From Deroplatys truncata (lineage: Eukaryota; Arthropoda; Insecta; Mantodea; Mantidae): 64,000 nucleotides of DNA. Position 1 is the stretch's first letter. Every line of letters begins with the position of its first letter. This document shows positions 3,645 to 60,683 of the stretch, piece by piece. The stretch is from assembly GCA_030765065.1 (NCBI GenBank), contig CM060978.1, positions 221,049,498 to 221,113,497 of the forward strand. The letters are read 5' to 3'. The notes under the pieces are model-generated. The model saw only the letters and a list, made by a program, of their open reading frames with translations, searched no databases and had not been told where the DNA came from. Made by a program: the position numbers and the translations under genes.

Positions 3645-4365
3645 TTAAATATATTTATTCAAATTCGTTAGAGCCATTTTTGAGAATACCAAAAATATCG
3701 AATATTTTACCTGGAAAGGGTAGTTTGAGATGGGGGTTTCTCGAAAACCTTGGTGTCATATATTTTCAATAAACTGAATATAAATACCAAGATTTGTATG
3801 CATCCGCGATTTCACTTTTTAGTTAGGCCTTTCATACACACACAAAGACAAGCATAAATTGTGTATTTTAATGCGATCTACATTTTATAGTAAAATTTTG
3901 TCTATCTCTTATGCTTTACCAGTTATGCAAAAGTCGTTCATAATGAAGAATTTTTTTGGAGACATTCCCAGAAAATTCGAGATATACATTTTATTTGTCA
4001 TGAAAGTATCTTAAATATATGATATTTTAATCAAAATAGTCAGAGCCAATTTTGATAAAATTAAAATTTTCGAAAAATGTTCGATGTAAAGGGTGGGGAT
4101 ATTTTCTTGAAAACATTCGTGTCGCATCTCTGGAAGATACTGAACCAAATTTGTTTTTTATCTGACTGTTCGTTTCTGAGTTATGCTGTTCACAGACACA
4201 CAGACAGACAGGCACACAGTCACACACGCGGACATGTTTCCAAAAATACCTTTTTTGGATTCAGGAGGCCTCAAAACATGTATTTCCGGTGAAGTCTCGT
4301 TATCGAATTTTTGGGTGGAATACAATACTTCCCCTACTTACTATACGTAGTAGAGAAAGTAAAAA
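3645..4365 (-). repeat. Family A: old fragment followed by a 5'-half copy, minus orientation
   Basis: Bases about 3645-3850 are a diverged piece of the 5' half of family A on the reverse strand. Bases about 3852-4365 are a better-preserved copy running from the 'ATAAATTGTGTATTTTAA' block to the 5' terminus, ending GTAGTAGAGAAAGTAAAAA. The copy includes the ACACAGACAGACAGGCACAC simple-repeat segment typical of the family. It lacks the 3' third. Confidence 0.75.
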
Positions 4366-7229: not shown

Positions 7230-8230
7230 GACTCTTTTGGAAAACTGGTCTCGCGAAGACTTATTCGACTTCTGTTGGCGAAACATGTAACCCCGGCTGA
7301 AATTCACCGGTACTGGTAAAGGTTTACAGAGAAACTTTAATGTGTCGTCAGCATGTCGAAGAATGGTGACGAAAGTTTGCGGCCGGTAGAGAAAATGTCA
7401 TCGACGAGGATCGCAGTGGTCGACCCAGTTCGGCATCAATTTGAACACAGCTTGCGTGGAAGAGCTGATTCTCGACGACAGGAGGATTACGTTACGACAT
7501 GTGTCGTATGTCATTCGGAAGCGTTCCTCACATTGTTCACGATATTCTTCAGTAGCAGAAAGTTTGTTCCCGATGGTTTCCACGAAATCTGTCCAACCAA
7601 CTGAAGGAGAAGCGCATGGGGGCAACCTGCATTGCATCTGTTCTCCACGGAAAGGAACAGTTTTCTCTACCACATTGTCTCGGGTGACAAAACATGGATC
7701 CACCACTATATCCCCAGCAGTAAGCGGTCATACCCCTCCCTCCAAAGACAAATAAGTTTAAGGTGACGCCATCTGCAGGAAAGGTGATGGACACAGTGAG
7801 GGTTGTCATACTCGTGGAGATTTTGGAAAGAGGGCACATAGTGACCGCTGACCGATACTGCGAGATCTTGAGATGATTGCGCGAAGCAAACGACTTCTCA
7901 CCGAGGGCTTTATGTTCCTTCACGACAACGTGCAACCTCATACAGCCCAGAACCACCATGCTGTTGAAGCAGTTTCTTTGGGACTCATCGACCACCCTCC
8001 CTAGAGCATGGAGCTCACTCCAAGTGACTTTCACCTTTTTCCTCACTTGAAGTAACGCCTAGGAGACCGACGATTCGCTTCAGACGAGGAGGTGAAACAC
8101 CTTGCGACGACGTGCCTTACACTTAAGGACAGGCTTTTTACTAGAAGGGGATTTTCAAACTCATCCCATGAGGGGAAAAGTGCTAAATCGATATAGAGGC
8201 TATGTCGAACAAGCGATATCTAGAAAAAAG
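7230..8230 (+). pseudogene. mariner transposase pseudogene
   Basis: Fragments of a mariner transposase are readable in shifting frames. They are the N-terminal helix-turn-helix region (HVTPAEIHRYW), the first catalytic region (GDKTWIHHY), PSAGKVMDTV, the second catalytic region (FLHDNVQPHTAQ), and the third (LTPSDFHLFPHLK) followed by FASDEEVKHL. There is a stop where HPPY is expected (HPP*), another after FPHLK, and frameshifts upstream. The usual GDET motif is GDKT here. The gene cannot make an active enzyme. Confidence 0.8.
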
Positions 8231-8706
8231 TATCTCAACTAAAAAAATGTATATTACATAAATTGTGTATTTTAAGGTGATCTACATCTTTTGTGTTGTA
8301 AAATTTGGTCTATCTCTTATGGTTTACCAGTTATGCAAAAATCGTTCACATTGAAGAATACTTTTGGAGAATACAGAAAATTCGAGATATACATTTCATT
8401 TGTCATGAAAATATCTTAAACATATGATATTTTAGTCAAAATCGTTAGAACCATTTTAAAATTTTCGAAAAATTTCCATATGCAGGGTAATCTGGGGTGG
8501 GGGATTTTCTTGAAAACCTTCATGTCGCATCTCTGGAAGATACTGAACCTAAATACCAAGTGTGGTGTTTATTCGACTGTTCGACACACACGGACATGTT
8601 TCCAAAAATGCCTCAAAACATATATTTCCGGTGAAATCTCGGTATCGAATTTTTGGGTGGAATACAATACTTCCCCTACTTACTATACGTAGTAGAGAAA
8701 GTAAAA
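8231..8706 (-). repeat. Family A 5'-half copy inside the mariner
   Basis: Reverse-strand family A runs from a position near the GTTGAGTGAACC block to the 5' terminus (TACGTAGTAGAGAAAGTAAAA). It splits the mariner transposase 3' end from its right inverted repeat, which resumes near 8707. The copy is closer to the 38-44 kb copies than to the host copy at 6.7-9.4 kb, so the family was active both before and after the mariner arrived. It includes a shortened ACACACACGGACATG segment. Confidence 0.8.
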
Positions 8707-14365: not shown

Positions 14366-15030
14366 ATTTTTACTTTCTCTACTACGTATAGTAAGTAGGG
14401 GAAGTATTGTATTCCACCAAAAAAGTCGATACCGAGATTTCACCGGAAATACATGTTTTGAGACCCCCTGAATCCCAAAAACAGTATTTTTGGAAACATG
14501 TCCGTTGGTGTGTCTGTGTCTGCCTGTGTACAGCGTAACTCAGAAACGAACAGTCGGATAAACATCAAACTTGGAATTTAGGTTCAGTATCTTCCAGAGA
14601 TGCGACACGAAGGTTTTAAAGAAAATACCCCCACCCCAAATTACCCTTTACTTGGAACATTTTTCGAAAATTTTAATTTTCTCAAAAATGTCTCTAACAG
14701 ATTTTGATTAAAATATCGTACATTTGAGATATTTTCATGACAAATAAAATGTATATCTCGAATTTTCTGGGAATGTCTCCAAAAGTATTCTTCATTGTGA
14801 ACGACTTTTGCATAACTGGTAAACCAGAAGAGATAGATAAAATTTTACTACACAAACAATGTAAATCACGTTAAAATATACAATTTATGTCATATACATT
14901 CTTTTTGTTGACTGAACCATTTTAGAGATATTACTTGTTATTCCCTCAAACTTTCCAATACTTATACCTTTTCTCAAATGGAAATTCGTTAAATCATATG
15001 GAGAATAAGCGTCTGTAAAAATAGTATGTA

Positions 15031-16245: not shown

Positions 16246-16287
16246 TACAAGAGTAGAGAAAGTCATGTGAGTATACATAAGATTTTT

Positions 16288-17133
16288 ACTTTCTCTACTA
16301 CGTATAGTAAGTTAGGGGAAGTACTGCTGCATTCCACCCAAAAATTCAATACAGAGATTTCATCGGAAATACATGCTTTGAGGCCTCCTGAATCCAAAAA
16401 AATATTTATGGAAATATGTCCGTGTGTATGTTTGTGTGTTTGTCTGTGAACAGCATAACTCAGAAACGAACAATCCGATAAACACCAAACTTGGTATTTA
16501 GGTCCAGTATCTTCCAGAGACACGACAGAAAGGTTTTCAAGAAAATCCACCCCACTCCAGATTACCCCTTACATGAAACATTTTTCGAAAATTTTATTTT
16601 CTCAAAAATGGCTCTAACGATTTTGATTAACGTATCATATTTTAAGACATTTTTATGGCAAATAAAATGTATACCTTGAATTTACTGGGAATGTCTCCAA
16701 AAGCATTCTTCATTGTGAACGACTTTTGCATTACTGGTAAACCATAAGAGATAAACAAAATTTTACTACACAACAAATGTACATCGCGTTAAAATACACA
16801 ATTTATATTATACAATTTTTTTATGTTGAGTGAACCATTTTTTAGATATTCCTAGTTATTCCCTTAAATTTTCCAATACTTATACTTATTCTCAAATTCG
16901 TTATTCATATTTTTGTCCTGGTAATGCAAAGCGAATGGAATACTCCACATTGCAACCAGCTCTTAAAATATTTGACTATGGCTTAAAGCCTACCATATTC
17001 CCCTTGCATCTACAAGAAAATTAGCAATAAGATTTACATCTCCATTAACATGAAGCATGTGGAGAATAAGCGTTCGTAAAAATAGTTTGTACAAGAGTAG
17101 AGAAAGTCATGTGAGTGTAACATCATACTTTTT
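16288..17133 (+). repeat. Family A, near full-length copy
   Basis: This is about 846 bp from ACTTTCTCTACTACGTATAG to the 3' block AGTAGAGAAAGTCATGTGAG. The terminal GTAACACATCAGA is slightly altered (TAACATCATAC) before a T-run. All internal blocks are in order: TG-rich segment, AACTTGGTATTTAGG, GACAAATAAAATG, CACAATTTATATTA, CTATGGCTTAAAGCC. It has no coding capacity beyond short ORFs. Confidence 0.9.
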
Positions 17134-27583: not shown

Positions 27584-28384
27584 AAAAAATCTGATGTATT
27601 ACACTCACATGACTTTCTCTACTTTTGTAAAAAACTATTTTTACAAAAGCTTATTCTCCATATGCTTCATGTTAATCGAGATGTTAATCTTATTGCTAAT
27701 TTTCTTGTAGATGCAAGGGGAATTGGTAGGCTTTAAGCGATAGTCAAATATTTTAAGAGCTGGTTGCTATGTGGAGTATTCAATTCTCTTTGCATTACTA
27801 GGACAAAAAAATGAATAACGAATTCCCATTTGATAAAAAGGATAAGTATTGGAAAATTTAAGGGAATAACAAGTGGTTCACTCAACAAAAAAAAATGTGT
27901 ATGACATATATTGTGTAATTTAACGGGATATACATTTTTGTGCAGTAAAATTTTGTCTATCTCTTATGGTTTACCAATTATGCAAAAGTCGTACACAATG
28001 AACAATACGTTTGGAGACATTCCCAGAAAATTCGAGATATAAATTTTATTTGTCAGGAAAGTATCTTAAGTATATGATATTTTAATCAAAATCGTTAGAG
28101 CCATTTTTCAGAAAATTAAAATTTTCGTAATCTAGTGTGGGGGATTTTCTTGAAAACCTTTGTGTCGCATCTCTGGAAGATATTGAACCTAAATACCAAG
28201 TTTGGTGTTTATCCGACTGTTCGTTTCTGAGTTATGCTGTTTACAGATAGACAGACACATAGGGACATGTTTCCAAACATACTTTTTTTGGATTCAGGAG
28301 GCCTCAAAACATGTATTTCAGGTGAAATCTCGGTATAGAATTTTTGAGTGGAATGAAATACTTCTCCTACTTACTATAAGTAAG
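27584..28384 (-). repeat. Family A, near full-length, minus orientation
   Basis: The plus strand starts AAAAAATCTGATGTATTACA (the family 3' end in reverse) and passes all internal blocks in reverse order. It ends CTTACTATAAGTAAG, where the usual terminal TACGTAGTAGAGAAAGT is mutated or lost. The TG/CA segment is short (ACAGATAGACAGACACATAG). Confidence 0.9.
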
Positions 28385-32375: not shown

Positions 32376-33677
32376 TAGGGTCTTTCAACACGAGTATCCT
32401 ATCTTTAACATGTGATAGCTGCCGTTGTTAATGAGTTACAACAGTAATTTTTTTCATGTGGTTACAGTTATTATTGACAAATAGGCAGGGAACGTTACAG
32501 TATTCAACAACTCACAGAAAATCTGTAAATTTATTATCAAAATGGATCATCTGTTCGCCAAACCTTCCGTGTATTGCGTGAAGTTTACCGTCTGCATAAT
32601 CGTCCCTGGAGAGAACGATCCGGCGTTTGATCGACAAATTTGAAAGAAGTGGTTCCGTCAGCGATCAAAGAACGCCTGTACGTAATCGACGTAAGCCCTC
32701 CAACGAAAACATAGACGCCGTTCGTGAGAGTGTAGGCGAGAACGGAAACAACTCAATTGATCGTCGAGCGCAAGAATTGGGGCTCTCGCCGACCACAACT
32801 TGGCAAATTCTGCATCTGGGCTTGAAGTATCACGCTTACAAAATTCTGTTAACACAAAAACTAAACCCCAACGACCATTGGTTGTGCCGTGTATTCGCTG
32901 ACTGGGCTATGGAGCAATTGGAAGCTGACCCGGATTTTTGTCGAAAAATTATCTTCAGCGACGAAGCTCCCTTTTGGATGGATGGTTGTGTTAACAAACA
33001 AAATTGCCGCTATTTGAGCAATCACAGTCCAATGTAGATTGAAGAACGACCACTTCATCCCCAAAAGGTTACTGTGTGCTGTGTATTTTGGTATGGTGGA
33101 ATCATTTGGTTCATATTTTTACAAGATGAAGATGGAGAAGCTGTAACAGTCAATGGAGAAAGATACCGGGCTCTTATAAGGGACCATTTTTGGCCACAAT
33201 TGGATGGTATGGATCTCAGAAACATCTGGTACCAGCAAGATGGTGCCACATGTGATACTGCTCTCGAAGCAATCGATCTTTTGAAGGAGAAGTGCAGAGG
33301 TTTCTTCATCATTTCCCATGGTGGTGAAGTTAACTAGCCCCGAAGTCATGTGATTTAACGCCGTTGGATTATTTCTTGTGGGATTATGTTAAATCTCGAG
33401 TTTATGTCAACAAGCCAGAAACAGTAAATGATCTTATGAATAACATCACGCCTGTTATTCGTGAAGTTGAACCTTATTTACGTTCTTCTGTCATTGACAA
33501 TTGGGCCAACCGTATACGCGCAACCCAACGAAGTCGCGGCGGTCACTTAACTGATGTTGTCTTCCACATGTAATGACATTAATTATGTTCCAAAATAAAA
33601 AAAAAATAAACCTCTATCACTCATAGAACGTTTTTTATGTAAGTTCAAAGATAGGACACTCTTGTTGAAAGACCCAA
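32376..33677 (+). mobile_element. rosa-like (DD41D) mariner element, second copy
   Basis: The left end is TAGGGTCTTTCAACACGAGT, and the right end is GTTGAAAGACCCAA on the plus strand, its inverted counterpart. The subterminal block CCTATCTTT is shared by both ends and by the 15.03-16.25 kb element. Length is about 1.3 kb. TA (32374-32375) precedes the left end, while the right flank reads AT, so the target duplication is decayed. The transposase is broken on the plus strand. Confidence 0.85.
32487..33573 (+). pseudogene. rosa-like mariner transposase pseudogene (DD41D)
   Basis: The start codon appears mutated (AGG where the sister copy has ATG). Readable segments include TIRRLIDKFERSGSV, SPTTTWQILHLGLKYHAY and the first catalytic region KIIFSDEAPFWMDG, then a stop (TAG) after NHSPM. 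After the stop come VTVNGERYRALI and the second catalytic region YQQDGATCDTAL, then GGEVN with a stop where W is expected, and a frameshift. LTPLDYFLWDYVKSRVY and the end GGHLTDVVFHM follow. It has fewer lesions than the 15-kb copy but is inactive. Confidence 0.85.
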
Positions 33678-36286: not shown

Positions 36287-37105
36287 AAAAATCTGATGTG
36301 TTGCACTCACATGACTTCCTCCACTCTTATACAAACTATTTTTACAAACGCTTATTCTCCATATACTTCATATTAATCGAAATGATTAATATTTGTAGAA
36401 ACTATCTTATTGTTTATTTTCTTGTAGGTGCAAGGGGAATGTGGTAGGCTTTAAGCGATAATCAACTCTTTTAAGCGGGATAACGAATTCCCATTTCAGA
36501 AGAAGTATAATTATTGGAAAATTCAAACAAATAACAAGAAATATCTCGGAAATGGGTCACTTGACAAAACAAAATGTATGACATAAATTGTGTGTTTTTA
36601 ATGAGATCAACATTTTTTGTGAAGTAAAATTTTGTCTATCTCTTACAGTTTAGCAATTATACGAAAGTCATTCAAAATGAAGAGAACTTTTGGGCACATT
36701 CCCAGAAAATTTAAGATATACATTCCATTTGCCATGTAAATATCTTAAACATATGCTATTTTAATCAAAATCATTAGAGCCATTTTTGAGAAATGAAACA
36801 TTTCGAAAAATGTTCCATGTAAAGGGTAGTCTGGCGTGTGGGGATTTTCTTTGTGTCACATCCTTGGAAGATACTAAACTAAAATACCAAGTTTGGTATT
36901 TATCCGAATTTTCGTTTTTGAGTTATGCTGTTCACAAACAGATAGACAGACGGACGGACACACAAACGGACATGTTTCCAAAAATGCTTTATTTGGATTC
37001 AGATCACCTCAAAATATGTATTTGGGGTGAAATCTCGGTATCGAATGTTTGGGTGGAATGCAATACTTCCTCTAATTATTATACGTAGTAGAGCAAGTAA
37101 AAAAA
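36287..37105 (-). repeat. Family A, near full-length, minus orientation
   Basis: The plus strand starts GAAAAATCTGATGTGTTGCA and ends TACGTAGTAGAGCAAGTAAAA. It lacks part of the CTGGTTGCTATGTGG block (jump near 36475). The 100-codon ORF at 36786-37088 (FHVKGSLACGDFL ... NTSSNYYT) is the best-preserved version of a reading frame present in several copies, but its middle is a translated ACAGACGG-type simple repeat. Confidence 0.9.
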
Positions 37106-38184: not shown

Positions 38185-38584
38185 TAAAAAATCTGATGTG
38201 TTACAGTCACATGACTTTCTCTACTCTTGTACAAACTATTTTTACAAACGCTTATTCTCCATATGCTTCATGTTAATCGAGATGTTAATCTTATTCTAAT
38301 TTTCTTGTAGATGCAAGGGCAATTGGTAGACTTTAAGCGATAGTGAAACATTTTAAGAGCTGGTTGCTATGTAGCGTATTCCATTCTCTTTGCATTACCA
38401 GGATAAAAAAAAATGAATAACAAATTCTCATTTGAGAAAAAGTATAAGCATTGGAAAATTTAAGGGAATAACAAGCAATATCTCGAAAATGGTTTACTCA
38501 ACAAAAACAAAAGAATATGACATAAACTGTATATTTTAACATGATCTACATTTTTTGTGTAGTAAAATTTTGTCTATCTCTTAT
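38185..38584 (-). repeat. Family A 3' half, minus orientation
   Basis: It runs from AAAAAATCTGATGTGTTACA to TTTTGTCTATCTCTTAT and then switches abruptly to plus-strand family sequence (TTACTTTTTCTCAAATTCG, about 38585-38611). With the plus-strand copies to its right it makes a second inverted arrangement. Confidence 0.85.
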
Positions 38585-38616
38585 CTTACTTTTTCTCAAA
38601 TTCGTTATTCATTTTT

Positions 38617-40346
38617 ACTTTCTCTACTACGTATAGTAAGTAGGGGAAGTATTGTATTCCACCCAAAATTTCGATACCGAGATTTCACCGGAAATACATG
38701 TTTTGAGACTCACTGAATCCAAAAAAAGCATTTTTGGAAACATGTCCGTGTGTGTGTCTGTGTGTGTGTCTGTCTGTGTGTCTGTGTGTCTGTGAACAGT
38801 ATAACTCAAAAACGAAGAGTCGGATAAACACCAAACTTGGTATTTAGGTTCAGTATCTTTCAGAGATGCGACACGAAGGTTTTCAAGAAAATCCCCCCAC
38901 CCCAGTCTATCCTTTACATGAAACATTTTTCGAAAATTTTAATTTTCTCAAAAACGGCTCTAACGATTTTGATTAAAATATCATATATTTAAGATATTGT
39001 CATGACAAATAAAATGTATATCTCGAATTTTTTGGGAATGTCTCCAAAAGTATTCTTCATTATGAACGACTTTTTCATAACTGGTAAACCATAAGAGATA
39101 GACAAAATTTTACTACACGAAAAATGTATTTATGTCATACACATTTCTTTTGTTGAGTGAACCCTTTGCGAGATATGGCTTGTTATTCCCTTAAATTTTC
39201 CAATACTTATACTTTTTCTCAAATTCGTTATTCATTTTTACTTTCTCTACTACGTATAGTAAGTAGGGGAAGTATTGCATTCCACCCAAAAATTCGATAC
39301 CGAGATTTCACCGGAAATACATGTTTTGAGACCTCCGGAATCCAAAAAAAGCATTTTTGGAAACATGTCCGTGTGTGTGTCTGTGTGTTTGTGTGTCTGT
39401 CTGTCTGTGTGTCTGTGAACAGCATAACTCAAAAACGAAGAGTCGGATTAACACCAAACTTGGTATTTAGCTTCAGTATCTTTCAGAGATGCGACACGAA
39501 GGTTTTCAAGAAAATCCCCCCACCCCAGACTACCCTTTTCATGGAACATTTTTCGAAAATTTTAATTTTCTCAAAAACGGCTCCAACGATTTTGATTAAA
39601 ATATCATATGTTTAAGATATTGTCATGACAAATAAAATGTATATCTCGAATTTTCTGGGAATGTCTCCAAAAGTATTCTTCATTATGAACGACTTTTTCA
39701 TAACGGGTAAACCATAAGAGATAGACAAAATTTTACTACATGAAAAATGTAGATCGCGTTAAAATACACAATTTATGTCATATACATTTCTTTTGTTGAG
39801 TGAACCGTTTGCGAGATATTGCTTGTTATTCCCTTAAATTTTCCAATACTTATACCTTTTCTCAAATTCGTCATTCATTTTTTTTATGTCCTGGACATGC
39901 AAAGAGAATGGAATGCGCCACATAGCAACCAGCGTTAAAATATTTGACTATCGCTTAAAACCTACCATATTCCCCTTGCATCTATAAGAAAATTATCAAT
40001 AAGATTGACATCTCGATATCTCCATTAACATGAAGCATATGGAGAATAAGCGTTTGTAAAAATCTTTTGTACAAGAGTAGAGAAAGTCATGTGAGTGTAA
40101 CACATCAGATTTTTTTATGTCCTGGACATGCAAAGAGAATGGAATGCGCCACATAGCAACCAGCGATAGAATATTTGACTATCGCTTAAAAGCTACCATA
40201 TTCCCCTTGCATCTACAGGAAAATTACAAAAAAAGATTGACATCTCGATATCTCGATTAATATGAAGCATATGGAGAATAGGCGTTTGTAAAAATAGATT
40301 GTACAAGAGTAGAGAAAGTCATGTGAGTGTAACACATCAGATTTTT
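38617..40346 (+). repeat. Family A outer copy, split by a nested family A copy
   Basis: The 5' part is 38617-39239, ending in the internal T-run after GTTATTCA. The 3' part resumes at 40111 with TTTTTTATGTCCTGGACATG and ends CACATCAGATTTTT at 40346. Joined, the parts total about 860 bp, the full family length, and the internal block is continuous as in other copies (TTCATTTTTTTTATGTCCTG). The copy at 39240-40110 is therefore an insertion into the outer copy's own T-run. Confidence 0.85.
39240..40110 (+). repeat. Family A inner (nested) copy, full length
   Basis: It begins ACTTTCTCTACTACGTATAG directly after TTCATTTTT and ends GTAACACATCAGA directly before T7. This gives the cleanest definition of the element ends in the window. 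Length is about 870 bp. The family's short inverted motif ACTTTCTCTACT is at the 5' terminus, and its complement AGTAGAGAAAGT lies about 22 bases inside the 3' end. No transposase is encoded, so it must be non-autonomous if mobile. Confidence 0.9.
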
Positions 40347-41207
40347 ACTTTCTCTACTACGCATAGTAAGTAGGGGAAGTATTGTATCCCACCCAAAATT
40401 TCGATACCGAGATTTCACCGGAAATACATGTTTTGAGACCCCCTGAATCCAAAAAAAGCATTTTTGGAAACATGTCCGTGTGTGTGTCTGCGTGTCTGTG
40501 TGTCTGTGAACAGCATAACTCAGAAACGAACAGTCGGATAAACACCAAACTTGGTATTTGGGTTCAGTATCTTCCAAGGATGCGACACGAAGGTTTTCAA
40601 GAAAATCCACCCACCCCAGAGTACCCTTTACATGGAAGATTTTTCGAAAATTTTAATTTTCTCAAAAATGGCTCTAACGATTTTGATTAAAATATCATAT
40701 GTTTAAGATATTTTTATGACAAATAAAATATATATCTTGAATTTCCTGGGAATGTCTCCAAACGTATTGTTTATTGTGAACGACTTTTGCATAACTGGTA
40801 AACCATAAGAGATAGACAAAATTTTACTACACAAAAAGTGTAGATCGTGGTAAAATACACAATTTATGCCATATACATTTTTTTAGTTGAGTGAACCATT
40901 TTCGAGATATTGCTTGTTATTTCCTTAAATTTTCCAACACTTATACTTTTTCTCAAATTCGTTATTCAATTTTTTATGTCCTGGATATGCAAACAGAATA
41001 GAATGCGCCAAATAGCAACCAGCGCTTAAAAGATTTGACTATCGCTTATAACCTACCATGTTCCCCTTGCATCTACAAGAAAATTAGCAATAAGATTGAC
41101 ATAACGATATCTCGATTAACATGAAGCATATGGAGAATAAACGTTTGTAAAAATAGTTCGTACAAGAGTAGCGAAAGTCATGTGAGTGTAGCACATCAGA
41201 TTTTTTT
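40347..41207 (+). repeat. Family A, full-length copy, head-to-tail with the previous one
   Basis: It starts at 40347 immediately after the CAGATTTTT of the outer copy, sharing one T-run, and ends GTAGCACATCAGATTTTTTT. All family blocks are present in order. Confidence 0.9.
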
Positions 41208-42526
41208 ACTCTGGGGGTTTCAAAACATTTCGTCATTTAAACTCCCCTTAATGTCAAAATGACTTTATTCTCCATTTTTATTATATTATACAATTAAACA
41301 TCTGGCTACAATGCGTATTTTCCATGACCTTTCGATCGTTAAGTTATATATACATTTATTACATCCATAATCATAGGTTTGTATTACAATCAAGTGTTCG
41401 TTGCTGTGCGACTCGTGAACATTAGTGCTTTGGCATTCGACTATATACAAATGGTTTATTTACTACGGTAATCTGAAGAATTTCACACTTGTTGCATAAA
41501 TAAGTATTAATATTTAAATTTTCTGTTCAATACGAATACTGAATTACAAGTTTATATCTAAACTTATAACTTCTTCTTCAGCATCATCATCATCAGTTTA
41601 TTGCGAACATTTCAAAGCAGTGAAAACAGTGGTTGACAGTGTATGTTATTATTCCATGTTTATTTTCCGCATTGTTCCACACTCTCCGTCGCCATTCATG
41701 TTTTTGAGATGTAAATGAATACTGCTGTCTCTTTTATGCAGTTATGCTAATGCTATTGTCAAACTGAGATGTTCTATTGACATTTGAGAATCAGACTTGT
41801 TTATTAAACCAGTACGCCCGTTATACTTACCGGAAAATATTTAATCCTATTGTGTGAATTTATAGCTATATAAAATAAAATATATAAAAGGTTTCACAAT
41901 GTTGCATCACACCCCTTTTATCAACACGACACTTCTGCAGTAACTGGAGGGAAATTTTATTTGTGATAGACACGACTAGTGAGGGAATAAATCTTTATTT
42001 TATCCTCAACGAAATAAGGGAAACTTGCGGAAAATGTTTTATCAAAGGTACGCTTACAAGAAATATTTTCATCTAATAAATATAGATCATCATTAATGCT
42101 GTTAGAGGCACTACAGAGGAAGCAACTGAAAATAAAGTCGCATTGTCATTCTAGAATGCCTTGCAAAGATTTTAATTGTTCTTTGTTTCAGCTATAGTTC
42201 TAGAAAGGCATTCGACTATGTTTGCTTGATGTGGGGGTTTGAGCATTTAGATAATGCGTGTTTAGTTCTTTTCATTTGACACTACATACCGTAAAGCGGA
42301 TTATTTGAAACACTTCCAAACTGTAACTGATCACAGCATTCATAATGTCTGTACAACTATTATATCAGCTCCCATGTTATAGGTGGCATGCTGAAAAGAG
42401 TAATGGAAAAATTCACTCAACTTTTCATATTCAGACTGAATTTTAATTTTTATTGTATTTTCAAGTTTTCCTAAACAATGGTGATGTTCGAAACACCAAC
42501 GATTCACATGGAAAGTCCTTATTTTT
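41208..42526. other. No recognisable feature
   Basis: AT-rich DNA between family A copies. A short ATC/TCA run lies near 41581-41598. No coding similarity recognised. Confidence 0.4.
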
Positions 42527-43432
42527 AGTTTCTCTACTACGTATAGTAAGTAGGGGAAGTATTGTATTCCACCCAAAAATTCGATACCGAGATTTCACCG
42601 GAAATACATGCTTTAAGACCCCCTGAATCCAAAAAAAGCATTTTTGGAAACATGTCCGTGTGTGTGTCTGTGTGTCTGTCTGTGTGTGTGTCTACCTGTG
42701 AACAGCATAACTCAGAAACGAACAGTCGGATAAACACCAAACTTGGTATTTAGGTTCAGTATTTTCCAAGGATGCGAAACAAAGGTTTTCAAGAAAATCC
42801 CCCCACCCCAGGTTACCCTTTATATGGAACATTTTTCGAAAATTTTAATTTTTTCAAAAATGGCTCAAACGATTTTGATTAAAGTATCATATGTTTAAGA
42901 TATTTTTATGACAAATAAAATGTATATCTTGAATTTCCTGGGAATGTCTCCAAAAGTATTCTTCATTGTGAACGACTTTTGCATAACTTGTAAACCATAA
43001 GACATAAGGAAAGTTTACTACACCAAAACTGTAGATCGCGTTAAAATAAACAATTTATGTCATATATATTTTTTTTGTTGAGTGAACCATTTTCGAGATA
43101 TTACTTGTTATTCCCTTAAATTTTTCAATACTTATTCTCTTAAATGGAAATTCGTTATTCATTTTTTGTCTTGGATATGCAAAGAGTATTAATCTGTGGG
43201 AAAGGGATAGCAACCAGCTATTAAGAGATATGTATGTGCTTAAAGGCTACTGTATTTCCAAATTGCCCTTGTAAATACATATTCCCCTTACATCTACAAG
43301 AAAACTAGCAATAAGATAAAGTCTGCAAATGTTTATCTCGATTAACATGAAGTAAATGGAGAATAAGCGTTTGTAAAAATAGTTTGTACAAGAGTAGAGA
43401 AAGTCATGTGAGTGTAATACATCAGATTTTTT
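42527..43432 (+). repeat. Family A, full-length copy with a variant internal block
   Basis: It begins AGTTTCTCTACTACGTATAG after T5 and ends GTAATACATCAGATTTTTT. At about 43165-43285 the usual CTGGTAATGCAAAGAG ... TTGACTATCGC block is replaced by GTCTTGGATATGCAAAGAGT and ATTAATCTGTGGGAAAG. The minus copy at 60.98-61.02 kb shares this variant, so it defines a subfamily. Confidence 0.9.
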
Positions 43433-43772: not shown

Positions 43773-44620
43773 ACTTTCTCTACTACGTATAGTAAGTAGG
43801 GAAAGTATTGTATTCCACCCAAAAATTCGATACCGAGATTTCACCGGCAATACATGTTTTGAGACCCCCTGAATCCAAAAAAAATATTTTTGGAAACATG
43901 TCCGTATGTGTGTCTGTGTGTCTGTGAACAGCATAACTCAGAAACGAACAGCGGATAAACACCAAACTTGGCATTTAGGTTTAGTATCTTCCAGAAAACC
44001 GACACAAAGGTTTTCAAGAAAATCCCCCCACCCCAGATTACCCTTTAAATGGAACATTTTTCGAAAATTTTAATTTTCTCAAAAATGAACTATAAAGATT
44101 TGATTAAAATATCATATGTTTAAGATATTTCATGTCAAATGAAATGTATATATCATGAATTTTCCGGGAATGTCTCCAAAAGTATTATTCATTGTGAACG
44201 ACTTTTGTATAACTAGTAAATCATAAGAGATAAACAAAATTTTACTACACAAAAAATGTAGACCGCGTTAAAATACACAATTTATGTCATATACATTTTT
44301 TTTTTTGAGTGAACCGTTTTCGAGATATTGCTTGTTTTTCCCTTAAATTTTCCAATACTTATACTTTTTCTCAAATGAGAATTCGTTATTCATTTTTTAT
44401 GTCCTGAACATTCAAAGAGAATGGAATATAGCAGCCAGTTCTTAAAATATTTGACTATCGCTTAAGGTCTACCGTATTCCCCTTGCACCTACAAGAAAAT
44501 TAGCAATAAGATTAACATTAACATCTCGATTAACATGAAGCATATGGAGAATAAGCGTTTGTAAAAATAACTTGTACAAGAGTAGAGAAACTCATGTGAG
44601 TGTAACACATCAGATTTCTT
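43773..44620 (+). repeat. Family A, full-length copy
   Basis: About 848 bp, from ACTTTCTCTACTACGTATAG to GTAACACATCAGATTTCTT. The TG segment is short (TATGTGTGTCTGTGTG), consistent with it being a mutable microsatellite inside the element. Confidence 0.9.
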
Positions 44621-49879: not shown

Positions 49880-49979
49880 TACATGCATGCATACATACAT
49901 GCTTTCATACATACATACATACATACATACATACATACATACATACATACATCCATACATACATCCATACATACATACA

Positions 49980-50011
<32 letters not shown>

Positions 50012-50017
50012 CACATA
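49880..50017. repeat. (CATA)n tetranucleotide microsatellite
   Basis: A long (CATA/TACA)n tract with CATCCATA interruptions and the end CATACATATACACATA, which abuts the first Tc1 copy. The tyrosine/methionine/cysteine- or histidine/threonine-rich ORFs here are repeat translations. Confidence 0.95.
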
Positions 50018-51230
50018 CAATACGTGATCAAAAGTATCCGGACACCTGGCTGCAAATGACGTGTAAGTTCGTGGCGCCCTCCATCAGTAATGCTGGAAGT
50101 CAATATGGTGTTGGCCTACCCTTAGCCTTGATGACAGCGTTCACTCTCGCAGGCATACTTTCAATCAGGTGCTGGGGAATGGCAGCTCATTCTTCACTGA
50201 GGAGAGGTATCCATGTAGATCGGTGAGGCCTGGCACGAAGTCGGCGTTTCAAAACATCCCAAAGGTGTTCTAGAGGATTCAAATCAGAACTCTGTGCAGG
50301 CCGTTCCATTACAGGGATGTTATTGTCGTGTAACCACTCCGCCACAGCCCGAGCAGTATGAACAGGTGCTCGATCGTGTTGAAACATGAAATCGCCATCC
50401 CTGAAGTGCTCTTCAACAGTGGGAAGCAAGAAGGTGCTTAAAATATCAATGTAGGTCTGAGCTGTGATCGTGCCACGCAAAACAACAAGGGGTGCAAACC
50501 CCCTCCAGGAAAAACACGACCACACCATCACACCACCACCTCCAAATTTCACTGTTGGCACTACACCGCTGGCAGATGACGTTCGCCATACCCACACCCT
50601 GCCATCGGAACGCCACAGTGTGTGCCGTGACTCGTCAATCCGCACAACGTTTTGCCACTGTTCAATCGTGTAATGTTGACGCTCCTTACACCAAGCGAAG
50701 CGTCGTTTGGCATTTTCCTGCGTGATGTGTGGTTTCTTATGAGCAGCCGCTCGACCATGGAACCCAAGGTTTCTCACCTCGCGTCTAACTGTCATAGTAC
50801 TTGGAGTGGATCTTGGTGCAGTTTGGAATTCCTGTGTGATGATCTGGATAGATGTCTGCCTATTACTCTTTACGACCCTCTTCAAATATCGGAGGTCTCT
50901 GTCAGTCAACAGACGAGGTCGGCCTGTACGCTTTTGTGCTGTACGTGTCCCTTCAGTTTCCACTTCACTATTGCATCACAAACAGTGGAGCTAGGGATGT
51001 TTAGGAGTGTGGAAATCTCGCGTACAGACTTGTGACACAAGTGACACCCAATCACCTGACCACGTTCAAAGTCCGTGAGTGACACGGAGCGTTTCATTCT
51101 GCTGTTTCACGATGTCTAATGACTACTGAGGTCGCGGATAATGAGTACCAGGCATTAGGTGGCAGCACAATGCACCTAAGATGAAAAACGTATGTTTGTG
51201 GGGTGTCCGGATATTTTTGATCACATAGTG
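50018..51230 (-). mobile_element. Tc1-like element, tandem copy 1
   Basis: 1,213 bp. The left end is CAATACGTGATCAAAAGTAT then CCGGACACC; the right end in reverse is CACTATGTGATCAAAAATAT then CCGGACACC. These are inverted repeats of about 28 bp. Both ends abut (CATA)n sequence. It differs from copies 2-4 at several sites (for example VVRIDES where the others have VVWIDES). Confidence 0.95.
50100..51097 (-). pseudogene. Tc1-like transposase pseudogene (DD34E), copy 1
   Basis: The N-terminal frame (SLTDFERGQVIGCHLC, then SVREISTLLNIPSSTVCDAI) is the helix-turn-helix, broken after VKWK by a frameshift. The downstream frame carries ETEGTRTAQKRTGRPRLL (with the GRPR hinge), IDESRHTLWRSDGRVWVW (first D), FMFQHDRAPVHTARAV (second D) and SSDLNPLEHLWDVL (E). 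There are 34 residues between second D and E. The frame stops after LLSEE where W is expected (TGA for TGG). Beyond the stop AAIPQHLIESMP and INDEED-free sequence continue in frame to TPY and a normal stop at 50100. Confidence 0.9.
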
Positions 51231-51274
51231 TGTACATACATACATACATGCATACACACATACATATACACATA

Positions 51275-52487
51275 CAATACGTGATCAAAAGTATCCGGAC
51301 ACCTGGCTGCAAATGACGTGTAAGTTCGTGGCGCCCTCCATCAGTAATGCTGGAAGTCAATATGGTGTTGGCCTACCTTTAGCCTTGATGACAGCGTTCA
51401 CTCTCGCAGGCATACTTTCAATCAGGTGCTGGGGAATGGCAGCTCATTCTTCACTGAGGAGAGGTATCCATGTAGATCGGTGAGGCCTGGCACGAAGTCG
51501 GCGTTCCAAAACATCCCAAAGGTGTTCTAGAGGATTCAAATCAGAACTCTGTGCAGGCCGTTCCATTACAGGGATGTTATTGTCGTGTAACCACTCCGCC
51601 ACAGCCCGAGCAGTATGAACAGGTGCTCGATCGTGTTGAAACATGAAATCGCCATCCCTGAAGTGCTCTTCAACAGTGGGAAGCAAGAAGGTGCTTAAAA
51701 TATCAATGTAGGTCTGAGCTGTGATCGTGCCACGCAAAACAACAAGGGGTGCAAACCCCCTCCAGGAAAAACACGACCACACCATCACACCACCACCTCC
51801 AAATTTCACTGTTGGCACTACACCGCTGGCAGATGACGTTCGCCATACCCACACCCTGCCATCGGAACGCCACAGTGTGTGCCGTGACTCGTCAATCCAC
51901 ACAACGTTTTGCCACTGTTCAATCGTGTAATGTTGACGCTCCTTACACCAAGCGAAGCGTCGTTTGGCATTTTCCTGCGTGATGTGTGGCTTCTTATGAG
52001 CAGCCGCTCGACCATGGAACCCAAGGTTTCTCACCTCGCGTCTAACTGTCATAGTACTTGGAGTGGATCCTGATGCAGTTTGGAATTCCTGTGTGATGAT
52101 CTGGATAGATGTCTGCCTATTACTCTTTACGACCCTCTTCAAATATCGGAGGTCTCTGTCAGTCAACAGACGAGGTCGGCCTGTACGCTTTTGTGCTGTA
52201 CGTGTCCCTTCAGTTTCCACTTCACTATCGTATCACAAACAGTGGAGCTAGGGATGTTTAGGAGTGTGGAAATCTCGCGTACAGACTTGTGACACAAGTG
52301 ACACCCAATCACCTGACCACGTTCAAAGTCCGTGAGTGACACGGAGCGTTTCATTCTGCTGTTTCACGATGTCTAATGACTACTGAGGTCGCGGATAATG
52401 AGTACCAGGCATTAGGTGGCAGCACAATGCACCTAAGATGAAAAACGTATGTTTGTGGGGTGTCCGGATATTTTTGATCACATAGTG
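51275..52487 (-). mobile_element. Tc1-like element, tandem copy 2
   Basis: 1,213 bp with the same inverted repeats and orientation as copy 1, separated from it by 44 bp of (CATA)n-type spacer. It is nearly identical to copy 3, sharing variants such as ASGSTPS and the GTGGCTTCTTATG form. Confidence 0.95.
51357..52354 (-). pseudogene. Tc1-like transposase pseudogene, copy 2
   Basis: It has the same architecture and the same two lesions as copy 1: a frameshift after VKWK and TGA after LLSEE. The catalytic D, D and E are retained (VVWIDES, QHDRAPVH, NPLEHLWDVL). Helix-turn-helix residues are intact. The remaining frame is 258 codons, short of the roughly 330-340 residues expected for a complete enzyme. 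Confidence 0.9.
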
Positions 52488-52547
52488 TGTACATACATAC
52501 ATACATACATACATACATACATACATACACACATACATATACACATA

Positions 52548-53760
52548 CAATACGTGATCAAAAGTATCCGGACACCTGGCTGCAAATGACGTGTAAGTTC
52601 GTGGCGCCCTCCATCAGTAATGCTGGAAGTCAATATGGTGTTGGCCTACCTTTAGCCTTGATGACAGCGTTCACTCTCGCAGGCATACTTTCAATCAGGT
52701 GCTGGGGAATGGCAGCTCATTCTTCACTGAGGAGAGGTATCCATGTAGATCGGTGAGGCCTGGCACGAAGTCGGCGTTCCAAAACATCCCAAAGGTGTTC
52801 TAGAGGATTCAAATCAGAACTCTGTGCAGGCCGTTCCATTACAGGGATGTTATTGTCGTGTAACCACTCCGCCACAGCCCGAGCAGTATGAACAGGTGCT
52901 CGATCGTGTTGAAACATGAAATCGCCATCCCTGAAGTGCTCTTCAACAGTGGGAAGCAAGAAGGTGCTTAAAATATCAATGTAGGTCTGAGCTGTGATCG
53001 TGCCACGCAAAACAACAAGGGGTGCAAACCCCCTCCAGGAAAAACACGACCACACCATCACACCACCACCTCCAAATTTCACTGTTGGCACTACACCGCT
53101 GGCAGATGACGTTCGCCATACCCACACCCTGCCATCGGAACGCCACAGTGTGTGCCGTGACTCGTCAATCCACACAACGTTTTGCCACTGTTCAATCGTG
53201 TAATGTTGACGCTCCTTACACCAAGCGAAGCGTCGGTTGGCATTTTCCTGCGTGATGTGTGGCTTCTTATGAGCAGCCGCTCGACCATGGAACCCAAGGT
53301 TTCTCACCTCGCGTCTAACTGTCATAGTACTTGGAGTGGATCCTGATGCAGTTTGGAATTCCTGTGTGATGATCTGGATAGATGTCTGCCTATTACTCTT
53401 TACGACCCTCTTCAAATATCGGAGGTCTCTGTCAGTCAACAGACGAGGTCGGCCTGTACGCTTTTGTGCTGTACGTGTCCCTTCAGTTTCCACTTCACTA
53501 TCGTATCACAAACAGTGGAGCTAGGGATGTTTAGGAGTGTGGAAATCTCGCGTACAGACTTGTGACACAAGTGACACCCAATCACCTGACCACGTTCAAA
53601 GTCCGTGAGTGACACGGAGCGTTTCATTCTGCTGTTTCACGATGTCTAATGACTACTGAGGTCGCGGATAATGAGTACCAGGCATTAGGTGGCAGCACAA
53701 TGCACCTAAGATGAAAAACGTATGTTTGTGGGGTGTCCGGATATTTTTGATCACATAGTG
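52548..53760 (-). mobile_element. Tc1-like element, tandem copy 3
   Basis: 1,213 bp after a 60-bp spacer that ends with the same CATACATATACACATA as the others. Only a few bases distinguish it from copy 2 (for example ANRRF for AKRRF), suggesting that this pair arose by a recent duplication. Confidence 0.95.
52630..53627 (-). pseudogene. Tc1-like transposase pseudogene, copy 3
   Basis: The same frameshift and the same premature TGA are present. The catalytic triad is retained. The ANRRF variant lies in the linker before the first catalytic aspartate and is not itself disabling. Confidence 0.9.
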
Positions 53761-53816
53761 TGTACATACATACATACATACATACATACATACATACACA
53801 CATACATATACACATA

Positions 53817-55030
53817 CAATACGTGATCAAAAGTATCCGGACACCTGGCTGCAAATGACGTGTAAGTTCGTGGCGCCCTCCATCAGTAATGCTGGAAGTC
53901 AATATGGTGTTGGCCTACCTTTAGCCTTGATGACAGCGTTCACTCTCGCAGGCATACTTTCAATCAGGTGCTGGGGAATGGCAGCTCATTCTTCACTGAG
54001 GAGAGGTATCCATGTAGATCGGTGAGGCCTGGCACGAAGTCGGCGTTCCAAAACATCCCAAAGGTGTTCTAGAGGATTCAAATCAGAACTCTGTGCAGGC
54101 CGTTCCATTACAGGGATGTTATTGTCGTGTAACCACTCCGCCACAGCCCGAGCAGTATGAACAGGTGCTCGATCGTGTTGAAACATGAAATCGCCATCCC
54201 TGAAGTGCTCTTCAACAGTGGGAAGCAAGAAGGTGCTTAAAATATCAATGTAGGTCTGAGCTGTGATCGTGCCACGCAAAACAACAAGGGGTGCAAACCC
54301 CCTCCAGGAAAAACACGACCACACCATCACACCACCACCTCCAAATTTCACTGTTGGCACTACACCGCTGGCAGATGACGTTCGCCATACCCACACCCTG
54401 CCATCGGAACGCCACAGTGTGTGCCGTGACTCGTCAATCCACACAACGTTTTGCCACTGTTCAATCGTGTAATGTTGACGCTCCTTACACCAAGCGAAGC
54501 GTCGTTTGGCATTTTCCTGCGTGATGTGTGGTTTCTTATGAGCAGCCGCTCGACCATGGAACCCAAGGTTTCTCACCTCGCGTCTAACTGTCATAGTACT
54601 TGGAGTGGATCTTGATGCAGTTTGGAATTCCTGTGTGATGATCTGGATAGATGTCTGCCTATTACTCTTTACGACCCTCTTCAAATATCGGAGGTCTCTG
54701 TCAGTCAACAGACGAGGTCGGTCTGTATGCTTTTGTGCTGTACATGTCCCTTCAGTTTCCACTTCACTATCACATCACAAACAGTGGAGCTAGGGATGTT
54801 TAGGAGTGTGGAAATCTCGCGTACAGACTTGTGACACAAGTGACACCCAATCACCTGACCACGTTCGAAGTCCGTGAGTTCCACGGACCGTCCCGTTCTG
54901 CTGTTTCACGATGTCTAATGACTACTGAGGTCGCGGATAATGAGTACCAGGCATTAGGTGGCAGCACAATGCACCTAAGATGAAAAATGTATGTTTGTGG
55001 GGGTGTCCGGATATTTTTGATCACATAGTG
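53817..55030 (-). mobile_element. Tc1-like element, tandem copy 4
   Basis: 1,214 bp, one base longer because of an extra G beside GGTGTCCGG at the right end. A 56-bp spacer separates it from copy 3. It carries its own set of variants (TCTAQKHTDRP instead of TRTAQKRTGRP) and is the most diverged near the transposase N-terminus. Confidence 0.95.
53899..54896 (-). pseudogene. Tc1-like transposase pseudogene, copy 4 (start codon lost)
   Basis: It has both shared lesions plus its own. The region corresponding to the ATG in copies 1-3 reads ACG, and the following codons are changed (GRSVELTDF instead of KRSVSLTDF). The hinge GRPR is DRPR here. The catalytic residues remain. It is the most degraded of the four. 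Confidence 0.9.
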
Positions 55031-55128
55031 TGTGTACATACATACATACATACATACATACATACATACATACATACATACATACATACATACATACATA
55101 CATACATACATACATACGTTCATGCATA
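55031..55128. repeat. (CATA)n microsatellite, right flank of the Tc1 array
   Basis: TGTGTACATACATACATA continuing for about 90 bp to ACGTTCATGCATACC. Together with the 49.88-50.02 kb tract and the three spacers it shows the array sits in one tetranucleotide tract. Confidence 0.95.
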
Positions 55129-58784: not shown

Positions 58785-59600
58785 AAAAAATATCTGATGT
58801 GTTATACTCACATGACTTTCTCTACTCTTGTACAAACTATTTTTACAAACGCTTATTCTCCATATGCTTCATGTTAATCGAGATGTTAATCTTGTTGCTA
58901 ATTTTCTTGTAGATGCAAGGGGAATTGGTAGGCTTTAAGCGATAGTCAAATATTTTAAGAGCTGGTTGCTATGTGGAGCATTCCATTCTCTTTGCATTAC
59001 CAGGACAAAAAATCGAATAACGAATTTGAGAAAAATTATAAGTATGGAAAATTTAAGGGAATAACAAGCAATATTTCGAAAATGGTTCACTCAACAAAAA
59101 AAAGTGTATAAATAGTGTATTTTAACGCGATCTACATATTTTGTAGTAAAATCTTGTCTATCTCTTATGGTTTACCAGTTATGCAAAAGTCGTTCACAAT
59201 GAAGAATACTCTTGGAGACATTCCCAGTAAATTCGAGATATACATTTCATTTATCATGAAAATATCTTAAACATATGATATTTTAATCAAAATCGTTACA
59301 CCCATTTTTGAGAAAATTAAAATTTTCGAAAAATGTTCCATGTAAAGGGTAATCTGGGGTGGGGGGATTTTCTTGAAAACCTTCGTGTCGCTTCTCTGGA
59401 AGATACTGAACCTAAATACCAGGTTTGGTGTTTATCCGACTGTTCATTTCTGAGTTATGCTGTTCGCAGTCAGACACACACACGGACATGTTTCCAGAAA
59501 TGCTTTTTTTGGATTCAGGGGGCCTCAAAACATATATTTTCGGTGAAATCTCATATGGAATTTTTGGGTCGAATACAATACTTCTCCTACTTACTATACG
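58785..59600 (-). repeat. Family A, near full-length, minus orientation
   Basis: It starts AAAAAATATCTGATGTGTTA and ends TTACTATACG, where it breaks just short of the terminal TAGTAGAGAAAGT. All internal blocks are in order. The CA segment is very short (AGACACACACACGG). Confidence 0.9.
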
Positions 59601-60683
59601 TCCGTGATATTGCAGGAATAGGTCGAAATCTATCGTGTGTATGCACCCGTACTTAGGACCTGTACTTGAAATTATAGTTGGGAGCAATGAACCGCACATC
59701 CCGATCGTCTCTAGTATCCATTCAGTGGATAACTATTCCACGTATCCCCTTGGATAAAAAAGGGGACATTCGCAAAAGCACCGAACAGAAACTGACGTGT
59801 TGTCCTGACTACCGGCCAAGCGCATTTCTGGTAGCCTCCTTAAGAGCTTAAGTGTGGTTTTAAGTGTTGTTACCCATGCATGGGTTCTACTACTGTGTTG
59901 ATAGGGTTCAATGTTATGGTACTTGTAAGGACCTACGCTAAATTTTAGACTTCTAAATGATTGGCTTTTCAGGGAATTTTTCCTGAAGAATGAGTAGTTT
60001 CATGCTTAAGAGTATCAATGATATTTTCTTTTCTTTTATGAGGGCCGCCTCCACCCCCGTTGACAATCGTCTTACATTGTCATCACATGCACATGCTGTA
60101 AACAACCGTAGTGGTAAATGAGGCTTCTTGTCAGTAAAGCTTCGTTCAAAGATTGATCGGATTCCACTTGAGCACCATGGTTAGTACGCCACTGGTTGAG
60201 TGCTGGCTGGGTGACACTCATAACACAAGGTGTTCGTGCATGCAGCTGATGAGATGAATTGTTAGAAAGATAGTTGTGATTAAGACTAAGTAAAGTTTCC
60301 AGCGGGTTTCGCGAGCAGTGTATATATATAGCCTGTTGCTGGACCCAAAACTACAGCTGTAGCAACAGGCTATTAGGATAAAATTTTTCAGCAGGTGGAA
60401 TTTTGACCTCTTCATATGACTGTAAAATAAAAGAGTTCATCATTGGAATATGTGGTTTGCAGTTTAGCAGGAAATGAGTACTAATGCGGAAGCAAGCGTA
60501 AAAGGTGGATGCGAACATCAACATGATTAATATCTGGTAATAAATAATTAATTTTTGCATATGTAAAACTGTTTATTTATTTATTTAAGAGCAGATAAAA
60601 ATAACAAGCAGCAACCCTGAATTCCTGGAGCACACATAATGTTCATACCGCTGCACAATGTATCTTAAGTAGCAAAATAAGCT
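59601..60683. other. No recognisable feature
   Basis: Unassigned DNA; a CTACAGCTGTAG palindrome lies near 60351-60362. No coding similarity recognised. Confidence 0.4.

Follow-up and report, generated by a model that had tools for sequence, protein, structure and literature searches.

A self-nesting, T-run-targeting repeat of the mantis Deroplatys truncata is very probably a non-autonomous Helentron derivative

The stretch of DNA analysed here (the window) comprises 64,000 nucleotides of contig CM060978.1 from the mantis Deroplatys truncata (assembly GCA_030765065.1) and carries a non-coding repeat family, with a unit of 871 bases, that inserts into T-runs, including its own. This family is very probably a HINE, a non-autonomous rolling-circle derivative of Helentrons that would depend on a Helentron resident in the same genome. 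The results support directly that the short repeat and resident coding elements share their ends, that the target is T-rich, that about five T's are added at insertion, and that copies are nested with the outer copy completed after the inner one. Eight of the nine features compared with published HINEs and Helentrons were found. For the HINE, these are the 12-base subterminal inverted repeats, the T-rich site, the lack of any target duplication found, a resident Helentron with the same ends and at least 11 shared bases in the subterminal repeats; for the coding element, they are a serine in the second Rep motif, a PIF1 helicase and a fused C-terminal apurinic/apyrimidinic (AP)-type endonuclease, the last matched at a score below the family cut-off. 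The ninth, a 3' palindrome, is present in 35 of 40 copies, with no support from folding. The original prediction, made from the window alone, had described self-nesting, T-run targeting, sharp ends and non-autonomy, all of which are supported by an alignment of 40 copies, by the flanks genome-wide and by a test of nested flanks. It had also proposed aligning the copies to a consensus, comparing occupied with empty sites and looking in the genome for an autonomous partner, and the outcome of each is given below.

The nested array and the anatomy of the unit

One copy in the window (39240-40110) interrupts a second, the halves of which (38617-39239 and 40111-40346), when rejoined, give 859 bases alignable with the inner copy over its whole length. 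The inner copy thus lies within the T-run of the outer one, as first described. The further claim that the outer copy is completed without loss stands for the end-to-end match, with the qualification that the two copies differ by one 20-base deletion, small indels and base changes. Immediately to the left, 38587-38616 matches family positions 614-643, suggesting that the outer copy itself sits at the T-run of yet another copy. A third copy follows head to tail from 40347, preceded by CAGA and exactly five T's (T5; runs of other lengths are written likewise), and the junction at 16288 has the same arrangement of 3' end, T5 and 5' end, so that both predicted junctions were found; the copies at 14372 and 42527 start after T5, also as predicted. 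Exactly T5 precedes seven of the 11 recognised 5' ends in the window, the remaining four being preceded by T7, T4, T1 and T1. Several window copies are alignable over more than 800 bases (E = 0), and a reversed-query control in the window gave five short matches, every one within an internal TGTG/TCTG microsatellite; chance or microsatellite similarity was ruled out on these grounds.

The constancy of the unit's features was gauged in the 40 best genomic matches, picked by similarity to the element and not by flank. The subterminal inverted repeats (subTIRs) form an exact pair of 12 bases, ACTTTCTCTACT near the 5' end and AGTAGAGAAAGT near the 3' end, which are unchanged in 37 and 39 of the 40 copies, respectively. 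In the fitted unit described below, the first is 2 bases away from the 5' end, and the second lies 22 bases inside the CAGA end. Because the 3' inverted copy lies this far inside the element, the inverted ACTTTCTCTACT motif is not a classical terminal inverted repeat (TIR). The original suggestion of a DNA transposon stands in the broad sense, and fails for a cut-and-paste TIR element, since the family is better placed as a rolling-circle Helentron derivative. An imperfect inverted copy of the 5' subTIR, AGTAGGGGAAGT, forms with it a stable 5' hairpin (z -3.9 against shuffles). Each copy carries T-runs of its own, i.e. an internal T8, an A7 that is a T-run on the opposite strand, and the T's at the 3' end.

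This plan closely resembles that of known elements, for which we draw on parts of PMC4067079, PMC7492417 and PMC5148889. HINEs and Helentrons are described as having subTIRs, the 5' one accompanied by an inverted copy or a palindrome, as well as a 3' palindrome and in some cases a microsatellite, and as inserting at T-rich targets with boundary T's and without target duplication (PMC4067079, PMC7492417). HINE subTIRs measure 12-15 bases and sit closer to the 5' end (2-4 bases away) than to the 3' end, and HINE insertion sites are T-rich or TT, with two T's or more on either side of the element. The mantis family shares with the HINEs and DINE-1-like elements of PMC4067079 the 12-base subTIRs, the inverted copy by the 5' one, the microsatellite and, as far as its sequence goes, the 3' palindrome, as well as the T-rich target, boundary T's on both sides, the absence of any duplication found and the non-coding character. 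It differs from them in its own sequence, in the distance between the start of the 3' subTIR and the CAGA end, which is 34 bases against about 38-60 in the mite families, in boundary T's that are fitted as TT and TTT, and in its 141,150 exact 5' ends in 4.29 Gb. The oyster Cg_HINE (PMC7492417) is alike in having a 5' subTIR with its inverted copy, a microsatellite of GTCY/GTCK type, a 3' subTIR and, as far as sequence goes, a palindrome, in inserting at oligo-T and in lacking a target duplication; it has satellite-like central repeats, none of which were seen in the 871-base unit, and its authors, in the part of the paper drawn on here, were unable to relate an autonomous element to it. The statement that no described superfamily has these ends and this target is thus overturned, both by the match to Helentron and HINE features (PMC4067079, PMC7492417) and by the coding elements with the same ends that reside in the genome.

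Boundary T's and the insertion site

Among the 40 best copies, the 5' flank is exactly T5 in 26, T6 in eight, T7 or T8 in two and TATT in four. Genome-wide, exactly T5 precedes 82,910 of 141,150 exact 5' ends, exactly T4 precedes 5,249 and TATT 15,073; as background, TTTTT ends at about 0.5% of window positions. Aligned over the 40 sites, the target has T at -3 in 38, T at -2 in 40, T (36) or A (four) at -1, and T at +1, +2 and +3 in 39, 39 and 35, respectively. In every one of the 40 sampled copies, the element is bordered by TT to its left and TTT to its right, four of them having one changed base between CAGA and the T's; some window copies are without this boundary.

Comparison of occupied and empty sites indicates how many of these T's arrive with the element. 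The empty sites are mainly the family's own T-runs, and 17 of the 40 copies gave any match. In the A-run, read on the other strand, empty sites have T7 in 30 of 35 and in 55 of 62 matches, and occupied sites read T5-element-T7 (L009 and L021) or T6-element-T7 (L038). Empty internal T-runs are T8 or T7 in 44 of 47 matches, and occupied ones read T5-element-T7 to T9 (L001, L003, L007 and L032) or T7-element-T6 (L027). Locus L017, in an unrelated repeat, reads T5-element-T5 when occupied and T5 at its empty paralogous site, in one pairwise alignment at 80% identity. Consistent with this, the overlap with the host is 2-6 bases in 13 of the 16 collinear nested copies and 0-1 in two; in L030, a gap of 11 bases is left, in the microsatellite. 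Therefore, the T counts and the host overlaps together indicate that each insertion adds about five T's.

Such an addition could also come from a target duplication of five bases, TTTTT, by a cut-and-paste DNA transposon, of which the repeat would be a miniature inverted-repeat transposable element (MITE). The most frequent 5' flank is T5, a duplicated TTTTT within a pure T-run is indistinguishable from T's borne by the element, and DINE-1-like elements were formerly classed as MITEs. Sites outside pure T-runs are the informative ones. At the loci with TATT on the left, as before 15,073 of the 141,150 exact 5' ends, the right flank begins with T's and not TATT in 4 of 4 best-copy loci and, in a second set of 12 loci, in all 11 for which the 3' end was found; this mismatch argues against target duplication. 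At L073, the site of the host family is ...AATACTTAT followed directly by ACTTTTT... when empty, and ...AATACTTATT-element-TTTTACTTTT... when occupied, so that five T's, split between left and right, are added at a site without T5 at the insertion point. No target duplication was found at the TATT-class sites, L017 or L073. The inverted repeats, moreover, are not terminal, the 3' one being subterminal, and the coding elements with the same ends encode a Rep, a helicase and an endonuclease. The TATT-class flanks at the loci read and the content of the coding elements rule out the cut-and-paste MITE with a T5 duplication for practical purposes, and we give it only a very slight probability.

Taken together, L073 and L067, which has only TTT on its right side, are best fitted by a mobile unit TT-ACTTTCTCTACT...CATCAGA-TTT inserted at TTW^TTT. 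The T's at both ends that the original prediction had as flanks are reassigned, in this fit, to the element, and the inner copy of the nested array would be 39238-40112. In the pooled loci, 12 of which had been picked for TATT, two or more T's are present at 82 of 85 distinct 5' ends; of the 3' ends (89 distinct, 88 of them well-formed), 80 carry three T's or more straight after CAGA. A unit with TT and TTT predicts five T's at the tightest head-to-tail joins; among the joins listed (about 100 of 6,405), none has four T's between the ends and three have another base in the run. In Culex Helentrons, the boundary T's have been regarded as the element's own, and as variable (PMC4067079).

Several points weigh against so exact a description of the boundary. 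The empty-site anchors allowed up to two mismatches and were drawn from a pool of overlapping loci, so that the lengths are distributions and not alleles; five of the 17 copies with an empty-site match have just a single, trivial one at a tandem join; L038 gives about six added T's, L016 and L024 give no fixed number, and the result for L002 depends on the anchor. At eight of the 88 well-formed 3' ends, CAGA is followed directly by at most two T's, five of these having one changed base and then a T-run. The division into TT and TTT is itself deduced from few decisive sites, mainly L067 and L073.

Coding Helentrons with the same ends

A genome search with Helitron_like_N gave at least 152 matches (150 of 291 candidates scored), and 18 of the listed matches have open frames of more than 2,000 codons; the ends were examined for two of these. 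Both are coding elements with the ends of the short repeat. The first, in C5:31070000-31089999, is 10,387 bases long from family position 1 to the family 3' end and lies inside the T-run of a short copy, the flanking parts of which are 1-644 and 643-871. The second, on C10, is solitary and 10,599 bases long. Their mutual identity is 96-98%; with the HINE they have in common positions 1-670, at 90%, and the final 34 bases, at 94%. Their 5' subTIR is identical to that of the HINE, and their 3' subTIR, GTAGAGAAAGT, has 11 identical bases. A family is defined by at least 11 identical subTIR bases and a subfamily by 80% identity over the last 60 bases (PMC4067079). The 11 shared bases place the coding elements in the same family as the HINE, and the last 60 bases, at less than 80%, in a sister subfamily. 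The search for an autonomous partner thus yielded two coding elements of 10.4-10.6 kb at this remove. In both, about 760-1450 bases from the 5' end, there are HINE-like pieces, two inverted (739-641 and 335-70) and then one forward (272-539), which look like the remains of an old nested copy that was taken up into the coding element. The matches L041-L060 have higher Helitron_like_N scores (up to 196 bits), are mostly interrupted by stops and seemingly form another group.

The C10 open frame has 2543 codons, stop to stop. A Pfam scan of 2457 of them gave PIF1 (PF05970, 4.2e-28), Helitron_like_N (2.7e-27) and DUF6570 (4.8e-16) and, more weakly, Exo_endo_phos_2 (7.1e-6) and Herpes_teg_N (1.3e-5); the longer N-terminal piece of the C5 copy matched Herpes_teg_N at 2.2e-9. 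The Rep motif, EFQMRGSPHEH, has an S between G and P, the serine that distinguishes Helentrons from Helitrons (PMC4067079), and the C-terminal endonuclease motifs GDFN, DIIF and SDH are present in order in C10. Along the frame (L062, 3-3221 of the minus strand; frame of L063/L064), a Herpes_teg_N-like domain is followed by a long array of charged repeats, DUF6570 and then the Rep, helicase and endonuclease. The mantis elements are like the autonomous Helentrons of PMC4067079 in their RGSPHxH Rep, PIF1 helicase, C-terminal AP-type endonuclease (Exo_endo_phos_2) and single long frame, and differ from them in the Herpes_teg_N-like domain, the repeat array and DUF6570 and in the absence of RPA and OTU matches from the Pfam scans; OTU proteases are mentioned for Helentrons in PMC4067079. 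A PHROGs scan of the N-terminal piece of a coding element gave 0 families, and a literature search returned nothing that combines two of Helentron, herpesvirus tegument and DUF6570; a second one, on Helitrons together with tegument and peptidase, listed a single paper, PMC12910113.

The rolling-circle Rep and PIF1 helicase, and the lack of any target duplication found, would also suit a canonical Helitron (Helitron1). The ends, TTACTTT...CATCAGATTT, lack the 5' TC and 3' CTRR of that class and the target is TTW^TTT instead of A^T; in addition, subTIRs are present, the Rep motif has S and not L, and there is an endonuclease domain. Ends, target and Rep motif rule out the canonical Helitron, to which we attach next to no probability.

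Several results tell against the placement as a Helentron derivative or weaken it. Over the last 60 bases, the HINE matches the two coding elements at 38/60 and 37/60 positions ungapped, or in 44/64 and 45/65 aligned columns, short of the 80% that defines a subfamily. HINE positions 671-837 have no collinear counterpart in either coding element. Given this unmatched part and the divergent 3' end, simple internal deletion from either coding element does not account for the HINE, and its direct parent may be another, unseen subfamily or copy group. The Exo_endo_phos_2 match in C10 (PF14529, 26.3 bits) is under the Pfam cut-off of 27.4, and the C5 piece has no endonuclease match and a frame broken in that region, which is why the C5 copy is probably dead. 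In the short element, the folding energy of the 3' palindrome is not better than that of shuffles (z -0.08).

These points leave room for another mobiliser, either an endonuclease-free element of the Helitron2 type or a Helentron subfamily not yet seen, in which case the two Helentrons found would be only sisters with similar ends. Helitron2 elements also have asymmetric terminal inverted repeats and insert at TTTT^T/C (PMC5148889); Helitron2 and FoHeli resemble the mantis family in these repeats, in a T-containing target and in self-insertions, and differ in their ends and in the lack of an endonuclease in Helitron2 (PMC5148889). The divergence of the last 60 bases of the HINE from both coding elements is in keeping with this idea, as is the fact that ends are known for 2 of the 18 long frames while further Helitron_like_N groups exist. 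Conversely, 670 bases of 5' sequence, both subTIRs (at least 11 bases) and the 3' end are common to the coding elements and the HINE, and one coding element was itself targeted to the same T-run. We consider another mobiliser unlikely, and give it the weight we do because the identity over the last 60 bases is too low for a common subfamily; a sister Helentron subfamily would leave the assignment of the repeat to the HINEs unchanged.

Abundance and self-nesting in the genome and the window

The genome has 141,150 occurrences of the exact 28-base 5' end and 0 of the same pattern read backwards; a 39-base version including TTTT occurs 100,826 times. In 20 random stretches of 2.5 kb from 15 large contigs (C13 and the small contigs being left out), 7.8% of the sequence (3,882 of 50,000 bases; bootstrap 95% 3.4-12.7%) belongs to the family or its relatives, with hits in 9 of the 20 stretches; the reversed-query control covers 68 bases. 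In the window, the family covers 13,084 of 64,000 bases. The Kimura two-parameter distance (K2P) from the 40-copy consensus is 0.02-0.15 in 20 of 24 alignments of window pieces and 0.24-0.29 in the other four, with 0.022 for the inner copy; the 40 best matches, a set picked for similarity, have a median of 0.013. The spread in the window and the low distances of the best copies point to a long-lasting family with recent copies.

Self-nesting is frequent. Both flanks are collinear within one family member in 16 of the 40 sampled copies by a strict test; 13 more have family sequence, non-collinear, on one or both flanks, and 11 have none. The 16 of 40 contrasts with a genome share of about 8%. 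A looser test gave 18 of 40 with joint family flanks instead of 16, and the supply of T-runs alone may explain the frequency. Exact junctions number 10,747 inside the family's internal T-run, 1,398 in the A-run in opposite orientation and 6,405 head to tail; the end is represented in these patterns by its first 15 bases alone, and the counts are therefore not strict fractions of the 141,150. On contig C1, many junctions with the family's own T-runs are paired at a spacing of about 610-660 bases, which suggests serial nesting or 3'-truncated tandem arrays.

Many of the head-to-tail and nested arrays might stem from rolling-circle read-through or segmental duplication instead of independent insertions. 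The pairing of 5' parts at about 610-660 bases among the junctions listed fits such an origin, and tandem Helitrons with 3'-truncated inner copies are on record. We nevertheless judge it improbable as a general account. The outer copies in the window and on C5 are completed after the inner one, as nesting and not truncation requires, in 16 of the 40 sampled copies the two flanks are collinear within a single host element, and insertions of opposite orientation exist in the A-run (1,398 exact).

The copies in the window are listed in Table 1. Scans of the window with Rfam (gathering threshold) and for tRNAs gave 0 matches each. Apart from the HINE family, positions 49960-55098 are taken up by an array in which a unit of about 1.26-1.27 kb is repeated four times head to tail at about 98% identity. 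Every unit has a minus-strand frame of 258 aa, and the single frame that was scanned matched Tc1-type transposase (HTH_Tnp_Tc3_2, DDE_3). Tandem Tc1 arrays are unusual. Two frames, 15136-15552 (-) and 32627-33037 (+), look by eye like fragments of mariner/Tc1-type transposases, with no Pfam match at 0.001.

Table 1. Features of the HINE family in the window (T's assigned according to the fitted unit).
Feature	Positions	Strand	Basis or remark
Outer HINE copy, left part (family positions 1-643, including fitted 5' TT)	38615..39237	+	alignment; T assignment inferred
Inner complete HINE copy, TT + ACTTTCTCTACT...CATCAGA + TTT	39238..40112	+	alignment; T's per fitted unit
Outer HINE copy, right part completing the outer copy	40113..40344	+	alignment
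Third HINE copy, head to tail	40345..41203	+	alignment
T5 before third copy	40342-40346		fitted unit: 3' TTT of outer copy + 5' TT of third copy
Fragment of further copy, family positions 614-643	38587..38616	+	alignment
Partial copy, family positions 475-871	38191..38584	-	alignment
5' subTIR ACTTTCTCTACT, inner copy	39240..39251	+	12 bases, exact in 37/40 genomic copies
AGTAGGGGAAGT, imperfect inverted copy of 5' subTIR	39262..39273	+	forms 5' hairpin with 5' subTIR
TGTG/TCTG microsatellite (family position near 130-178)	39370..39417	+	limits approximate
Internal T8 run of inner copy	39877..39884	+	frequent self-insertion site
3' subTIR AGTAGAGAAAGT	40076..40087	+	exact in 39/40 copies
3' palindrome ATGTG-N7-CACAT	40089..40105	+	35/40 copies
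Solitary HINE copy	42525..43429	+	alignment
HINE copy, 5' flank without T-run	43773..44617	+	alignment
HINE copy, own 3' CAGA altered	16286..17132	+	T5-joined to 3' end of another copy (about 16246-16287)
HINE copy, positions 1-628	14370..14979	+	3' part missing or diverged
HINE copy	27589..28382	-	alignment
HINE copy, older	36291..37098	-	alignment; K2P 0.153
HINE copy	58792..59601	-	alignment
HINE copy, 5' part, positions 1-538	3853..4362	-	alignment
Partial HINE copy	8208..8704	-	alignment

Proposed mechanism and implications

We propose the following series of steps for the movement of the HINE, modelled in part on what is known of the wider family. The Rep/helicase/endonuclease protein of a Helentron would recognise the ends common to HINE and Helentron, the Rep would nick at these ends, and one strand would be copied by rolling-circle replication. 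The resulting intermediate, single-stranded and probably circular, would be joined into a T-rich target TTW^TTT, with about five T's added. The T-runs of the new copy (the internal T8, the A7 on the other strand and the 3' T's) could then receive later copies. As these runs make every copy a good target, self-nesting and head-to-tail joins through one T-run would follow. Whether this amounts to a runaway, self-feeding nested expansion that has come to fill about 8% of a 4.3 Gb genome, driven by a Helentron with a herpes-tegument-like cysteine protease domain, we put forward tentatively, as a possibility about which we are more doubtful than confident.

The results place a non-coding repeat that had seemed to be of no known superfamily and point to a resident Helentron as what probably drives it. 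Of some interest are the scale of the family, the fit of the boundary T's and the protease-like domain at the N terminus of the coding element. With its 141,150 exact 28-base 5' ends, the family offers a very large body of natural data on how Helentrons integrate, in which the ambiguity over the ownership of the boundary T's, as it stands in PMC4067079, is resolvable through occupied and empty sites. The effect of self-targeting on the growth of large genomes is likewise measurable here.

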